Below are positions 22,286-29,401 of a DNA stretch of 64,000 bases, in pieces. Every line of letters starts with the position of its first letter. Positions within the stretch are counted from its first letter, which is position 1. The stretch is from Herbiconiux solani NBRC 106740. GTDB lineage: Bacteria; Actinomycetota; Actinomycetes; Actinomycetales; Microbacteriaceae. The notes under the pieces were generated by a model. It did not search any database and had not been told where the DNA came from. It saw only the letters and a list, made by a program, of their open reading frames with translations. A program made the translations under genes and the position numbers. The stretch covers positions 248,001 to 312,000 of the forward strand of contig NZ_BCST01000006.1 in NCBI RefSeq assembly GCF_001571005.1. Direction: 5' to 3'.

Positions 22286-24190
22286 TCAGCCCAGTGGCCC
22301 GTACAGCGCGGGCGTGGTGCGCGCGTGCGTGGCCTGCTCGAAGGCGTAGCCGAGCCCGATGATCGTGCTCTCGGCGTAGTCACGGCCGAGGAACTCCAGG
22401 TTCACCCCGCCCCCGGTGACCGTGTTGTCGGCCGCGATCGCCTGGCCCATCGGCACCGTGATCGCGGGCATCCCGGTGTTCGGGCTCAGCCGCATGTTGG
22501 TGCTGTAGGTGCCGTAGGGCGTGCCGGACGGGTAGATGAGGGCATCCAGGTTCTGGGTGTCCATCAGCTGCGTCACGTAGGCCTTGCCGGTGGCGATCTG
22601 CGTGGTGTGCGAACCGGCAGGGCCCGCCCACGCCTGGTAGGCATCCTCGGTCACCGCGTTGCGCTGGTTGTAGATCGAGGTGCGCGAGGTGACGAAGTTG
22701 CCCGAGGCGATGATGTCGCCGAGCGTGCGCGGCACGACGTTCGCCGAGAGGTGGTTCTGGATGTACGTGTTCAGGTCGTGCTTGAACTCGTTCGTCGAGC
22801 CGCTGCCCTCGTTGAGGATCTTGTTGAACGGGTCGGTCGAGGCGGTCGAAACCGTGATCGGCACCACCGTCGCGCCCTGCGCCTCGAGCGTCGCGACCGA
22901 CTGGTTGAACAGGCGGAGCGTGGTGGCGTTCGTGCTGACCATCGAGGTGACGTAGCCGATCCGCTTGCCCGCGAGGGCCGTCGGGTCGAGGGCCGCCGTG
23001 TAGGAGTCCGGCACCTTGCCGATCTGCGCCGAGGTCGCCGGGTCGGCCGGGTCGACCCCGGTGACCGCGTCGAGGGCCACCGCGGCGTCGGTCACGCTGC
23101 GCGCGATCGGGCCGCCGGTGTCCTGCGACAGCGCGAGCGGGATGATCCCGTCACGGCTGGTGAGGCCCACGGTGGGCCGGATGCCGACGAGCTGGTTGTA
23201 CGTCGAGGGCACCCGGATCGAGCCGCCCGTGTCGGTGCCGAAGCCGATCCCGGCGAGGTTCGCCGAGATCGCCGCACCCGTTCCACCGCTCGAACCGCCC
23301 GCGGTCTTCGTGGTGTTGTACGGGCTCGCGACCAGCGAGGTCAGCTGCTTGCCGGTGGCGTCCACCCCCTGGAACGAGGTGTACTCCGAGACGAAGCCGT
23401 AGGCGAACTCGTCCAGGCTCGCCTTGGCGAGGATGACGGCGCCCGCGTCGCGAAGCCCCGTGACCATGGCCGCATCCGTCGTCGGCTGGTTGGCGTTCCA
23501 GCAGGCGCAGCCACCGGTGGTCGGCATGTCGGTGGTGTCGTAGTTGTCCTTCAGCGCGATCGGCACACCGAGCAGCAGGCTGGTCATGCCCGAGCTCGCA
23601 CGGGTCGCATCGGCCGCCGCGGCGACCTGGAGGGCGGCGGCGTTCGTCGTGATGATCGAGTTCAGCGCCCGGCCGCCCTGGCCGGCGTCGACGACCGTCT
23701 TGTCGTACGCGGCGATGCGGTCGAGGTAGTCCTGGGTCAGCTCGACCGAGGTGATCACCCCGGCGTTCATCGCGGCCTGCATGTCGATGGCCGAGGCCTC
23801 GACGAGCTGGAACGGGCCGTCGTCGTAGACCATGCGGCTTGAGACGGCGGCCAGGTCGCTGACCGTGATCGTGCCGTCCGCATCCACGTCGGCGGGGGCG
23901 ACCGCGCTCCAGTCGGCGCTCGCCGCGGTGGCACCGAGGTGCGCCGAGACGACGTCGAGGTCGGCGGTCGTCACCTGGCGGTCGCCGGTGACGTCGAGCT
24001 CGGTGTAGAACGGCGCCAGCAGGGGAGCCGCCGAGCCGGGGGCGGCGGCGGTGGCTGCGGTAGAGGCAGCGGCGGGTGCGGCGCCCAGCTCGGCCGCGCC
24101 GGCCGGGACCGCGACGAGCGTGCCGAGGGCGAGGGTGGAGATGAGGCACGTGGCGGCGGCTGCCGCGGTGCGGACGCGTCGTGGGTTCAC
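22286..24190 (-). CDS. Secreted amidase (amidase-signature family) with N-terminal dockerin
   Basis: 634 residues from GTG 24190. Order: signal peptide (about 1-33, ending near PAGAAELG); dockerin type I (about 62-119) with two calcium loops DVTGDRQVTTADLDVV and DVDADGTITVSDLAAV; then an amidase-signature domain to the end. The Ser-cisSer-Lys triad is visible: Lys214 (ALKDNYD), Ser300 (TAGGSSGG) and Ser324 (GTDTGGSIRVPS), with spacing as in the family. The enzyme would hydrolyse amide bonds outside the cell. GAGGAA lies 7 nt before the GTG; an alternative ATG at 24271 overlaps the upstream stop (ATGA) and would add 27 Pro/Ser/Arg-rich residues. The cohesin gene lies directly upstream. Confidence 0.9.
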   Translation of the reverse strand: MNPRRVRTAAAAATCLISTLALGTLVAVPAGAAELGAAPAAASTAATAAAPGSAAPLLAPFYTELDVTGDRQVTTADLDVVSAHLGATAASADWSAVAPADVDADGTITVSDLAAVSSRMVYDDGPFQLVEASAIDMQAAMNAGVITSVELTQDYLDRIAAYDKTVVDAGQGGRALNSIITTNAAALQVAAAADATRASSGMTSLLLGVPIALKDNYDTTDMPTTGGCACWNANQPTTDAAMVTGLRDAGAVILAKASLDEFAYGFVSEYTSFQGVDATGKQLTSLVASPYNTTKTAGGSSGGTGAAISANLAGIGFGTDTGGSIRVPSTYNQLVGIRPTVGLTSRDGIIPLALSQDTGGPIARSVTDAAVALDAVTGVDPADPATSAQIGKVPDSYTAALDPTALAGKRIGYVTSMVSTNATTLRLFNQSVATLEAQGATVVPITVSTASTDPFNKILNEGSGSTNEFKHDLNTYIQNHLSANVVPRTLGDIIASGNFVTSRTSIYNQRNAVTEDAYQAWAGPAGSHTTQIATGKAYVTQLMDTQNLDALIYPSGTPYGTYSTNMRLSPNTGMPAITVPMGQAIAADNTVTGGGVNLEFLGRDYAESTIIGLGYAFEQATHARTTPALYGPLG

Positions 24191-24267
24191 GGATCGGTTC
24201 CTCGGGCTGGAAGGGCGGGAAGGGCTGGAGGGGCGGGAAGGATGGCCGGGGGCCGGCGGCAGGATGC

Positions 24268-24999
24268 TCATCGCGCGCTCGCAGCCCGGCGCCGGAGCAC
24301 CACGACCAGGCCGACGGCGAGGGCCGCCACGGCGAACACGATGAGACCGCCGACGCCGAAGCCGGTCAGCGCGAGCGAGCCGCTGTCCGACGAGGCGACC
24401 GCGGCAGGGGTCGCGGTGGCGGTCGGGGCGTCACTGGGCGTGGGGCTCGGCGTCGCGGTGGGCGACGTGGTCGGGGGAGTCGTCGGCGGCACGGTCGGCG
24501 CCGCGGCGATGTCGATCGCGGCGGCCGGGGTCGCGGGGATGACGGTGCCGGCGCCCGATCCGTCGACCAGCGTCACGTGGGCGGTGACGGTCGCGTCGCC
24601 GGCGGCGAGTGTCGTCAGCTTCACGGATGCGGCCAGGTCGCCCGAGAGCGCGGGCGAGGTGCCGAGTCGCGTCTGCAGCAGGGTCACCTTTCCGTCTCCG
24701 GTGACGGCCGAGAGGTAGCCGCCGGCCGGACCGGTCTCGGTGTCGGCCTGGTAGGCGAGGAGGGCCGGGTCGAAGTCGAGCTCGATCTGGTAGGCGAAGA
24801 CGTCGGCGGTGCCGGCGAGGCCGATGGTGACGTCGACGGGGGCGCCGACGGTGACCGCGGGGGTCACATCCAGGTCGACGGGCACGGGTGCCGGTGCGGC
24901 GACGGCCGCCTGGGCGCCGAGGAAGGAGAGGCCGAGGGCGAGTCCGCCGGCCAGAGCGGCCGCTCGGATCCGCCGGCGGCGGGTCGGGTTTTCATGCAT
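24268..24999 (-). CDS. Wall-anchored single-cohesin surface protein
   Basis: 243 residues. Order: basic signal peptide (1-34), one cohesin-like module (about 39-165: VTVGAPVDVTIGLAG, FAYQIELDFDPALLAYQ, LAAGDATVTAHVTLVDG), a Pro/Thr linker (about 168-200), LALTG at 209-213, a membrane helix and an RRR tail. LAxTG is the motif of class E sortases in high-GC Gram-positives, so the protein should be covalently wall-bound, displaying the cohesin. Its partner is very likely the dockerin-bearing amidase directly downstream on the same strand. The 319-bp gap upstream separates it from the divergent GH92 gene. Confidence 0.85.
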   Translation of the reverse strand: MHENPTRRRRIRAAALAGGLALGLSFLGAQAAVAAPAPVPVDLDVTPAVTVGAPVDVTIGLAGTADVFAYQIELDFDPALLAYQADTETGPAGGYLSAVTGDGKVTLLQTRLGTSPALSGDLAASVKLTTLAAGDATVTAHVTLVDGSGAGTVIPATPAAAIDIAAAPTVPPTTPPTTSPTATPSPTPSDAPTATATPAAVASSDSGSLALTGFGVGGLIVFAVAALAVGLVVVLRRRAASAR

Positions 25000-25318: not shown

Positions 25319-28300
25319 GTGAAGAAAGTCCGCAGCCGGCGTATCCGGCCCCTCAGGGAGATCCTCGCGGCGGCCACCGTCGCGTCGGTCACCGCCGCTC
25401 TCGCCGTCACCGGCGGAGCGGGCGTCGCCGTCGCGGCGGGCAACCCGCTCACGGACGATCCGGCTCGGTACGTCGACCCGTTCGTCGGCAGTTCGAACGC
25501 CGGCAACACCTACCCCGGGGCGGTCGCGCCGTTCGGCATGCTCGGGTGGAGCCCCGACCAGAGCTCCGTCTCCAACGACGGGACGCTCCGCAGCGCCTCA
25601 CCGAGCGGGTACGAGCACGACCGCGACTTCATCCGCGGTTTCGGGCTGACCCACGTCTCGGGCGCCGGCTGCGCCGGGCTCTCCGGCGACATCCCGTTCA
25701 TGCCGGTCAGCGGGGCGATCCAGACCTCGCCCTCGGCCGCCGACGCGGCGGGCACCCCGTACCAGAGCACCTTCTCGCACGACAACGAGGAGGCCTCGCC
25801 CGGGTCGTACCACGTGGCCCTCGACTCCGGCGTCGACGTCGATCTCGCGGCGACCACCCGCACCGGCTCCGGCCGCTTCACCTACCCCGCGGGGGCTCCG
25901 GCCTCGATGCTCGTCCGCACCTCGGACTCGCTCGTCGGCTCGAGCGACGCCGACGTGCACGTCGACGCCGCCACCCGCACCATCTCCGGCTCGGTCACGA
26001 GCGGCAACTTCTGCGGCGGCTTCGTCGGCGACGGCATCCTGCAGCGCAGCTACTACACGGTCTACTTCACCGTGCAGTTCGACAAGGACTTCCAGTCGGT
26101 CGGCACCTGGCAGGACGGCGAGCTGCGCCCGCAGACCACCGACGCCGAGGGCGGCACCACCTACCCCGGCGGCTACCCGCCGGCGGGCAAGGGGTCCGGC
26201 GCGTACGTCAGCTTCGACACCTCGGCCGGCAGCGCCGTGAACGCGCGGGTCGGCATCTCCTACGTGAGCCTCGACAACGCCGAGCAGAACCTGGCGGCCG
26301 AGAACCCGGCCGGCACCACGCTCGAGCAGGTGAAGGCGGCCACGAAGGCCGACTGGAACACCGAGCTCAACCGCATCCAGACCGGGGGTGGCACGGATGC
26401 GGAACGCACGACGTTCTACACCGCGCTCTACCACGCGCTGCTGCACCCGAACGTGACGAGCGACGTCAACGGCCAGTACACCGGCTTCGACCTCGCGACC
26501 CACACGGTGCCGGCCGGTCAGGACGCGCAGTACGCGACCTTCTCGGGCTGGGACGTCTACCGCTCCCAGGTGCAGCTGGTCACGCTGCTGGACGCCAAGC
26601 GCGGCAGCGACATCGCCGCGTCGCTGCTCAACCAGGCGAACCAGAACGGGGGCGAGTGGGACCGCTGGACGCACAACTCCGGCGGCACGCACGTGATGGT
26701 CGGCGACCCCTCGGCCGTGGCCCTCGCGGGGATCGTGGCCTTCGGCGGCGACGACTTCGACGTCGCGAGCGCCTACCAGTCGCTCAAGACGGCGGCCACC
26801 GTGCCGACGGCGAACGACCTGTCGCGCGACGGCTGGAACATCGCGGTCATCGGCCAGCGCCCGTCGCTGGACCAGTTCCTCGAGCACGGCTACTACCCCG
26901 AGGGCTGCAACGCCTGGGGCTGCCCGAACGAGACGCTCGAGATGGCGGCGGCCGACTACGGTCTCGCCAGCCTCGCGCAGCACCTCGGCAACAGCGCCGA
27001 CTACGACCAGTTCGTGACGCGCTCGCAGTCGTGGCAGAACCAGTTCAACCTGGCCTCGACGCCCGGGGGCGGCTACATCCAGGGCCGCAACGCCGACGGA
27101 TCGTGGACGACCGGGTTCGACCCGGCATCCAGCAACGGCTTCGTGGAGGGCACCAGCGCCCAGTACACCTGGATGGTGCAGCACGACCCGGCGGGCCTGT
27201 TCCAGGCCATGGGCGGGGCGGATGCGGCGAGCGACCGGCTCGACGGCTTCTTCCACGAGATCGGTGACGAGAACGGCAACGGCGTCCCCGGTGAGTGGAC
27301 GCTGGCCGGCGGATCGTGGGACACCAACCTGCACTCCAACGTCGACAACGAGCCCTCGATCGGCGCCCCCTGGCTGTACAACTACGCCGGGAAGCCCTGG
27401 AAGACGCAGGAGACGGTGCGCGCCACGATCCAGCAGCTCTGGCTCGACACGAAGGACGGCGAGCCCAACGGGCCCGACGGCATCCCGGGCAACGACGACC
27501 TCGGCGAGATGTCGTCGTGGCTGGTCTTCTCGGCCATGGGCCTGTACCCGGAGAACCCGTCGCGCTCGGAGCTCACGGTGGCGGCCCCGCTGTTCACCGA
27601 CGTCGTGATCCACCGCGCGAGCGGCGAGACCATGACGATCTCGGCTCCCGAGGCGAGCATCGGCAACCAGTACATCCAGTCGATGTCGGTGAACGGGAAG
27701 GCGCAGACCGCGACCTACCTCGACGCCGACGCCATCTCGGGTGACACCACGGTGGCCTACCAGCTCGGCAGCACGCCGAACCAGCAGTGGGGGACGGGGG
27801 CGGCGGATGCTCCGCCCTCGGTCCGCGACGGCGAGCAGCCGGTGCTGGCGAGCGTCGCGCCCTCGGCCGACACGGTGCGAGGCGGCACGACCGATCCGGT
27901 GACCCTTCGCGCGCAGCGCTTCGGCGACTCGGCGGCGACTGCGAGCTACTCGATCGAGCCGACCCCGGGTCTGACCCCGGATGCGGCGACGGGCACGTTC
28001 TCGTTCGACGCGGACGGCACCGCGGTGCTCCCGGTCGTGTTCCGGGCGTCGGCCGACCTGGCCGCCGGGACCCAGCTAGTGCGCGTGCACTTCACGGCCG
28101 ACGGGAAGGCGCTGCCGGACGGCACGCTGAACGTCGCCGTGCGTGAGCAGGGCACCCCCGTGATCGACACGAGCTTCGAGGACGGGCAGGCCCGCCCGAC
28201 CCCGAACACCGTGATCGACAGCCAGGGCTGGAGCGAGTACTGCTGCGGCATCGGCGGGCCCGAGACCAAGCCGCACCAGGAGAAGGCGCACACCGGTGGC

Positions 28301-29401
28301 TGGTCGATCGTGTACTCCGGCCGTGCCTCCGAGGCCGACGCGAGTGCGACCACGCAGCTGCTGGACGTCGACGCCATCCGGGCGCAGGCGGGGTCCACCC
28401 TCAGCTACGCGGTCTACCCGCAGGCGGAGGCGACGGCGATCGCCGGGCTGGTGCAGGATGCCAGCCAGTACGTGGCGGTCGACCTGCTGTTCACCGACGG
28501 CACGCGACTGAGCGACAGCGGGGTGGTGACCTCGAACGGCAAGACGCTCGACCCCATCCAGCAGGCGCAGGCGCTGACGACGGATGCCTGGAACGACGTC
28601 TCGGTCGTGCTCCCCGACGCGGTCGACGGCAAGATCATCGACCAGGTCGTGCTGCACTTCTCGACCGGCGGGGCGTATGACACGAAGGGCGACAACGGGT
28701 ACCTCCGCGGCTGGGTCGACGACCTGCGGCTCACGCAGCAGTTCGAGCCGCTCACGGTGACCCCGGCCACGGGTGTCACGGCCACGGCCGGAGTCGCGTT
28801 CGACGCCGTGCTGGCTGGCTTCACGGGTGGGGCGGGCGCCGAGGCGGCCGACTTCTCGGCGGCAGTGCAGTGGGGCGACGGGACGGCGGCCAGCGACGCG
28901 GTCGTGGGTGCGGCGGGTGCTGGTGTTGGTGCTGCCGGTGGTGCTGGTGCTGGCGCCGGTGCTCGGGCTGCGGCCGGGTACTCGGTCAGCGCTGGGCACA
29001 CCTACGCCCAGGCCGGGCAGTACGACGCGGTCGTCACGGTGACGGATGCGGACGGCGTGCAGCAGAGCGCGACCGTCTCCATCCAGGTCGCGGCGGCACC
29101 GGACGGTGGCACGCCGGGCGACGGGTCGACCGGCCCGGGCACCGGAACCGGCCCCGGCACGGGAACGGGCCCGGGAACGGGCACCGGCCCCGGAGCGGGT
29201 GACGGCACGGGAACGGGCACTGGCTCAGGTTCGGGCAATTCAGGCTCCGGCTCGACCGGCGCGAACAGCTCGAACGGGCCTCTCGCGCTGACCGGCAGCC
29301 AGGCGTTCCTCGGAGCGTCGGTCGCGGCCCTGCTGCTGGCGGCGGGACTCGGTGCGCTCCTCGTGGTGCGCCGCCGTCGCCGGGCACACGGAGCGAACTG
29401 A
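25319..29401 (+). CDS. Wall-anchored GH92 alpha-mannosidase, multidomain
   Basis: 1360 residues. Order: signal peptide (about 1-40), GH92 N-terminal domain starting YVDPFVGSSNAGNTYPGAVAPFGM, catalytic domain with NEPSIGAPWLY and the signature GNDDLGEMSSW (from residue 724), a jelly-roll/carbohydrate-binding-like segment (about 950-1140), a PKD-like domain (about 1147-1260), a Gly/Thr/Pro repeat linker, LALTG at 1322-1326, a membrane helix and a basic tail. GH92 enzymes are calcium-dependent exo-alpha-mannosidases acting on N-glycans or yeast mannan. The GTG start has GGAGAA upstream. The PKD-like region carries an inserted Gly/Ala/Val run (VVGAAGAGVGAAGGAG). Confidence 0.93.
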   Translation: MKKVRSRRIRPLREILAAATVASVTAALAVTGGAGVAVAAGNPLTDDPARYVDPFVGSSNAGNTYPGAVAPFGMLGWSPDQSSVSNDGTLRSASPSGYEHDRDFIRGFGLTHVSGAGCAGLSGDIPFMPVSGAIQTSPSAADAAGTPYQSTFSHDNEEASPGSYHVALDSGVDVDLAATTRTGSGRFTYPAGAPASMLVRTSDSLVGSSDADVHVDAATRTISGSVTSGNFCGGFVGDGILQRSYYTVYFTVQFDKDFQSVGTWQDGELRPQTTDAEGGTTYPGGYPPAGKGSGAYVSFDTSAGSAVNARVGISYVSLDNAEQNLAAENPAGTTLEQVKAATKADWNTELNRIQTGGGTDAERTTFYTALYHALLHPNVTSDVNGQYTGFDLATHTVPAGQDAQYATFSGWDVYRSQVQLVTLLDAKRGSDIAASLLNQANQNGGEWDRWTHNSGGTHVMVGDPSAVALAGIVAFGGDDFDVASAYQSLKTAATVPTANDLSRDGWNIAVIGQRPSLDQFLEHGYYPEGCNAWGCPNETLEMAAADYGLASLAQHLGNSADYDQFVTRSQSWQNQFNLASTPGGGYIQGRNADGSWTTGFDPASSNGFVEGTSAQYTWMVQHDPAGLFQAMGGADAASDRLDGFFHEIGDENGNGVPGEWTLAGGSWDTNLHSNVDNEPSIGAPWLYNYAGKPWKTQETVRATIQQLWLDTKDGEPNGPDGIPGNDDLGEMSSWLVFSAMGLYPENPSRSELTVAAPLFTDVVIHRASGETMTISAPEASIGNQYIQSMSVNGKAQTATYLDADAISGDTTVAYQLGSTPNQQWGTGAADAPPSVRDGEQPVLASVAPSADTVRGGTTDPVTLRAQRFGDSAATASYSIEPTPGLTPDAATGTFSFDADGTAVLPVVFRASADLAAGTQLVRVHFTADGKALPDGTLNVAVREQGTPVIDTSFEDGQARPTPNTVIDSQGWSEYCCGIGGPETKPHQEKAHTGGWSIVYSGRASEADASATTQLLDVDAIRAQAGSTLSYAVYPQAEATAIAGLVQDASQYVAVDLLFTDGTRLSDSGVVTSNGKTLDPIQQAQALTTDAWNDVSVVLPDAVDGKIIDQVVLHFSTGGAYDTKGDNGYLRGWVDDLRLTQQFEPLTVTPATGVTATAGVAFDAVLAGFTGGAGAEAADFSAAVQWGDGTAASDAVVGAAGAGVGAAGGAGAGAGARAAAGYSVSAGHTYAQAGQYDAVVTVTDADGVQQSATVSIQVAAAPDGGTPGDGSTGPGTGTGPGTGTGPGTGTGPGAGDGTGTGTGSGSGNSGSGSTGANSSNGPLALTGSQAFLGASVAALLLAAGLGALLVVRRRRRAHGAN

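Follow-up and report, generated by a model that had tools for sequence, protein, structure and literature searches.

In cellulosomes, cohesins and dockerins routinely bind each other on proteins anchored at the surface; there a scaffoldin carries several cohesins and a carbohydrate-binding module, and the cargo is carbohydrate-active. The two genes considered here use the same two module families as the clostridial cellulosome, with a surface-anchored cohesin that would present a dockerin-bearing enzyme, and they differ from it in having one cohesin, one enzyme, no scaffold series, an amidase as cargo and an actinobacterial host. A cellulosome was rejected as a description of the locus because of the one cohesin, the lack of any carbohydrate-binding module match by Pfam on either gene product and an amidase that is not carbohydrate-active cargo. 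The closest solved folds to the cohesin are also non-cellulosomal, namely the cohesins of Clostridium perfringens glycoside hydrolases (2jh2, 2w1n and 2vo8) and of Archaeoglobus fulgidus (2xdh); going by their entry titles these sit in a glycoside hydrolase or an archaeal protein, whereas the cohesin described here belongs to a separate, apparently wall-anchored protein encoded next to an amidase. For the catalytic domain the closest solved relatives are the peptide amidases 5ac3 and 1m21, with the cut-off of the nearest NCBIfam amidase model not reached. A third comparison is offered by the SLH amidases of Bacillota (L172-L178, L180, L183, L184, L188, L193 and L200), in which a homologous amidase carries an N-terminal wall-binding module and is anchored through the same chain, whereas the amidase described here has a dockerin and would depend on a separate anchor protein. 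No description of a cohesin paired with a dockerin-amidase was found in the literature searches made, and an earlier note on this DNA knew of none for the arrangement in this family; an earlier mention is possible in Peer et al. (2009) on non-cellulosomal modules.

The pair lies in a stretch of 64,000 nucleotides from Herbiconiux solani NBRC 106740 (the window). Our main reading, to which we give a probability of about 0.8, is that the pair constitutes a minimal cohesin-dockerin unit outside any cellulosome, which holds the amidase at the cell surface. The features of the locus are:

22286 to 24271, minus strand: amidase gene, encoding a signal peptide, an N-terminal dockerin and an amidase-signature domain (PF00404, PF01425)
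23834 to 23995, minus strand: dockerin, residues 93-146, with two calcium-loop repeats, DVTGDRQVTTADL and DVDADGTITVSDL (PF00404)
24268 to 24271, minus strand: ATGA overlap of the cohesin stop and the amidase start (from the sequence and the ends of the open reading frames)
24268 to 24999, minus strand: cohesin gene (PF00963 match; signal peptide read from the sequence)
24493 to 24888, minus strand: cohesin module as modelled, residues 38-169, 132 aa (alignment A2 and AlphaFold2)

The two genes are consecutive on the minus strand and share the ATGA, both as the earlier note had proposed, and translation of the cohesin and amidase genes may well be coupled there. A pattern scan returned no promoter-like sites around the cohesin and amidase region and two terminator-like sites on the plus strand within the cohesin gene, against 0.7 expected. 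The divergent neighbour (25319 to 29401, plus strand) encodes a secreted glycoside hydrolase of family GH92 that itself carries an LALTG sorting signal; unlike the amidase, this enzyme is predicted to be anchored in cis.

The cohesin gene product (243 aa) has a signal peptide and a single cohesin module, followed by a Pro/Thr linker, the LALTG motif (residue 209), a segment of hydrophobic residues and an RRR tail. It scored 29.1 bits against PF00963 (cut-off 24.1), and the cohesin and the wall-anchor signal first read by eye were both borne out. The AlphaFold2 model of the module, built from an alignment of 43 sequences, had a mean pLDDT of 95.4 and the beta-sandwich fold of a cohesin: among its top 16 Foldseek matches in the PDB, 15 were titled cohesin (best E 1.6e-10, with the C. 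perfringens cohesins 2jh2 and 2w1n in the lead), the remaining one was 2o4e, a module of a C. perfringens GH84 enzyme, and rank 17 was a streptococcal adhesin domain. A search with the cohesin by sequence only matched C. perfringens NagJ chains and no others, at E 0.001 to 0.007. LAxTG is the motif of class E sortases, and the window genome encodes one (NF033747, 243.1 bits against a cut-off of 160), as well as a second sortase that is closest to class F and under the cut-off for that class. With its sorting motif followed by a hydrophobic stretch and basic residues, and with a class E sortase encoded in the same genome, the protein has the marks of a sortase-anchored protein, and the gene looks to encode a secreted, wall-anchored single-cohesin protein.

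The amidase gene product (661 aa) matched PF00404 over residues 93-146 with 25.5 bits (cut-off 22.9) and contains two calcium-loop repeats beginning at residues 93 and 128, which together place the module in Dockerin type I and bear out the dockerin with two calcium loops that had been claimed. The numbering given for it in the earlier note, 62-119, does not hold when residues are counted from the ATG in the overlap; a start codon further downstream was apparently used there. In each repeat the loop aspartates at positions 1, 5 and 12 are shared by 26 to 28 of the 28 relatives in the alignment. Asp or Asn is the usual residue at position 3 of a dockerin calcium loop; in the first loop this position is Thr in all 28 aligned relatives. 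Over the same alignment the second dockerin helix (positions 14-19 of repeat 2) is more conserved than the first, which suggests one main dockerin binding mode. Profile searches, the check put forward with the original claim, thus matched both modules to their Pfam models over cut-off. The conservation of the loop aspartates, together with the recurrence of the two modules side by side across genera described below, places the modules beyond chance. A chance motif was rejected on the curated cut-offs and on conservation.

The remainder of the protein matched PF01425 at E 5.6e-76 and has the complete amidase-signature triad attributed to it, with K241, GGSSGG at 325 and S351, positions to which we presume the catalytic roles belong. 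All 26 rows of alignment A4 agree in the columns of the Lys, Ser-Ser and Ser motifs, and with these motifs and the PF01425 match the protein belongs to the amidase signature family. Its nearest solved structures, the peptide amidases 5ac3 and 1m21, matched at E about 1e-74, with the match beginning past the dockerin at query residue 152. The nearest NCBIfam amidase model, NF006006, which we take to stand for peptide amidases, scored 344.6 bits against a cut-off of 534 and so gave no family-level match to peptide amidases, and the amidase is under the cut-offs of all NCBIfam amidase models among the matches listed (25 of 27).

In the window genome (3.85 Mb, 18 contigs) Pfam found one cohesin and one dockerin over cut-off, both at the window locus, and the genome search for other dockerin proteins therefore returned none over cut-off beyond the amidase. 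A further dockerin match had E 0.78 and 12.4 bits. The dockerin model has limited specificity at E up to 1, since it matched 9 of 14 control genomes, 2 of them over cut-off; the cohesin model at the same threshold had matches in 2 of the 14 (over cut-off in 1).

The distribution of the two genes within the genus followed the proposed pairing, as the cohesin is found in 5 of 16 Herbiconiux genomes and the orthologous amidase, at 72-100% identity, in exactly those 5. In the remaining 11 genomes no cohesin was detected at E 0.01 and amidase matches do not exceed 39% identity, and no dockerin was found in the 7 of these that were searched. Across a sample of 398 genomes of the family, a cohesin over cut-off occurs in 19, and all 19 have the dockerin-amidase; 18 of these pairs lie in one stretch, and in G010 the halves stand at the ends of two contigs and are presumably adjacent. 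A dockerin over cut-off occurs in 24 of the 398 genomes, with 26 matches, 23 of which fall within this amidase. All 23 dockerin-amidases adjoin a cohesin, counting the presumed neighbour in G010, and 6 of the 23 cohesins were recognised only by comparison with the window cohesin and not by Pfam. Seven more family genomes have a cohesin match at E 0.01 that is under the cut-off, and one of them (G145) has the pair (L099).

The other three dockerin matches in the family lie in an 86-residue frame (G274), in a protein of 1251 aa in G009 (L116:3357-7109, plus strand) and in one of 1239 aa in G367 (L115:1969-5685, minus strand). Neither of the two long proteins has a catalytic Pfam match, and the one in G009 ends in a LAATG tail of its own, with its dockerin under the cut-off in the protein scan. 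It could be supposed that the dockerin serves another cohesin, or the cohesin another cargo, in a small multi-enzyme system, a reading which draws on these second dockerin proteins and on the 9 to 28 dockerin matches in three Paenibacillus genomes but which we consider extremely improbable given the one cohesin and one dockerin over cut-off in the window genome and the separate tail of the G009 protein. In a sample of 396 genomes of the phylum, a cohesin over cut-off was found in 4, being the window genome and 3 of another genus, whose cohesins sit in frames of more than 2000 aa. These matches (L204, L205 and L206) lie in very long surface-like proteins of that one actinobacterial genus, and in L204 a dockerin-like calcium loop seemingly stands just before the cohesin match, as judged by eye.

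A set of named genomes, the best 80 of 514 confirmed matches, comprised 79 loci, in which dockerins and cohesins were called by models built in this analysis; this set overlaps the family set by at least 9 loci, and the two are not independent. Among the best 80 of 514 matches, the dockerin is carried by 49 of the 79 loci. A cohesin accompanies it in 46 of them, 37 times upstream, 6 times downstream and 3 times as a fusion, and none of the 30 dockerin-less amidases has a cohesin nearby, some of their flanks being cut off at contig ends. The three exceptions among the 49 are L129 and L132, which are at contig ends, and L171, which has a divergent upstream cohesin (hhalign 98%; no Pfam family). 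A Fisher test on the association gave p about 1e-18, a value that is descriptive only, as related loci are treated as independent. The pair recurs in two phyla, in both gene orders and as fusions, and the pairing of a cohesin with the dockerin-amidase is conserved. Within the cellulomonad family, parts of the unit are found in Cellulomonas iranensis, with a dockerin-amidase whose locus lies at a contig end (L132), and in Oerskovia merdavium, where dockerin and cohesin are both present (L164); a published study of cellulomonad genomes reports neither dockerins nor cohesins in those it covered.

Cohesin-dockerin distances were also compared, beyond what the amidase accounts for, by a partial Mantel test on 71 loci reduced to 63 without repeats, with L137 left out. 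The 63 loci, which include very divergent rows, gave a partial r of 0.35, with 0 of 2000 permutations as high, but the 52 core loci showed no correlation (partial r 0.025, equalled or exceeded in 708 of 2000 permutations); because of this null the test is not used as support. A structure model of a natural fusion was too poor overall to serve as evidence on the interface (pLDDT 66.5, pTM 0.58), with only dockerin blocks 11-60 at pLDDT 81-91. The null in the core set would suit a reading in which the dockerin does no more than bind calcium as a spacer, the cohesin acts on its own as a surface protein, and the two are neighbours through an accident of operon inheritance. We judge this very unlikely, as the association (46 of 49 against 0 of 30) extends over two phyla, both gene orders and fusions, and as the calcium ligands and much of the second dockerin helix are conserved. 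For the window pair, we infer binding between cohesin and dockerin from module identity and genomics.

What the dockerin is for can be read from the way in which related enzymes and cohesins are anchored. An LPxTG-like motif stands at the end of 36 of the 46 named cohesins and takes the form LAxTG in 30 of these (best 80 of 514 matches); no clear sorting motif was found in L151 and L099. The cohesins of all 3 Paenibacillus loci have three SLH domains each, the L170 cohesin being under the Pfam cut-off. The Bacillota account for 16 of the 30 dockerin-less amidases, and SLH domains were found over cut-off in 13 of these 16, under cut-off in 2 and not at all in 1; they lie in the N-terminal part of the same chain. 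In the amidase tree (82 rows, midpoint root, L181 and L187 dropped as too short) all 54 dockerin-bearing rows fall in one clade (support 98/96), which adjoins a clade of 12 SLH-bearing amidases (99/96) at a fork supported at 94/94, and L172, also with SLH, is placed elsewhere. Homologous amidases thus appear to be anchored either by their own SLH domains or via a dockerin and an anchored cohesin. This anchor exchange among homologous amidases argues that the dockerin is there for surface attachment, and it is our strongest argument for that role.

Several loci do not fit simple display. In five Nocardioides loci (L161, L162, L163, L165 and L166) the cohesin is followed by Ig-like sequence and no wall anchor was recognised; in L162, L165 and L166 dockerin, amidase and cohesin lie in one open frame, and the dockerins of L162, L163 and L166 had no Pfam match in the genomes and were found by the model built here. 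In one family genome (L118) the modules are fused in reverse order, separated by a sorting-like signal, and an internal start is possible. The distant copies are weak by Pfam, and their module calls rest on models built here. Whole-genome searches covered 22 of the genomes that contain the 49 loci, 3 of Paenibacillus and 19 actinobacterial. The 19 actinobacterial genomes had one cohesin match in 14 and none by Pfam in 5, and one dockerin match in 14, none by Pfam in 4 and two in G009. The Paenibacillus genomes (G810, G811 and G812; loci L168, L169 and L170) had 15, 15 and 33 cohesin matches and 10, 9 and 28 dockerin matches, respectively, and are not one-enzyme systems. The one-enzyme display first proposed for this locus therefore fits the actinobacterial genomes sampled, but it does not extend to the three Paenibacillus relatives or to the five Nocardioides loci without a recognised wall anchor. 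Some cellulosomal dockerins are accompanied by X-modules; in one Paenibacillus amidase (L168:5299-7656, plus strand) the module that precedes the dockerin is weakly cohesin-like (hhalign 13.5%, E 0.0021) and is perhaps comparable to these.

In the three Paenibacillus genomes, a cohesin match lies no more than 700 nt away on the N-terminal side of 37 of the 47 dockerin matches. Taken with the three Nocardioides frames that join all modules without a recognised wall anchor and with the natural fusion in the other order in L118, this could mean that cohesin-dockerin binding mainly assembles or stabilises the enzyme, as chains, rings or an intramolecular clamp, and that wall attachment is a secondary trait of some lineages. 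Such a role appears unlikely to us in view of the sorting signals on 36 and the SLH domains on 3 of the 46 named cohesins, and of the SLH domains in 13 of the 16 dockerin-less Bacillota enzymes themselves. A history to which we would give even odds is that one amidase lineage swapped the SLH domains of its own chain for a dockerin and a separate cohesin-SLH protein in Paenibacillus, that a single enzyme-anchor pair then reached the actinobacteria, where a sortase signal replaced SLH, and that Nocardioides dropped the anchor and fused the halves, the order of these steps being drawn from the midpoint-rooted tree.

On the surface-display reading, the cohesin protein would be secreted and linked through its LALTG to peptidoglycan, most probably by the class E sortase, and the amidase would be exported separately. 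The N-terminal dockerin would then fold around two calcium ions and dock on the single cohesin, so holding at the cell surface an amidase that may hydrolyse amide bonds in peptides or similar small amides and so retain the product or ammonia close by. For the window pair, the need for calcium, processing by the sortase, catalytic activity and substrate are all predictions.

Taken together, the pair is a real and conserved variant that brings a known principle down to its minimal form, one socket and one enzyme, with an amidase as its unusual cargo and anchors exchanged in nature among its relatives. Small binding pairs of high-GC origin for protein engineering could be drawn from such loci, which also point to a large Paenibacillus cohesin and dockerin set, of which no description was found in literature searches that were not aimed at Paenibacillus. 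The natural versions of the enzyme, anchored in cis (SLH), in trans (a cohesin with SLH or a sortase signal) or fused without a recognised anchor, allow a direct test of what outsourcing the anchor brings. If the reading proposed here is true, cohesin-dockerin pairing outside cellulosomes would be a way to move the surface anchor off an enzyme.
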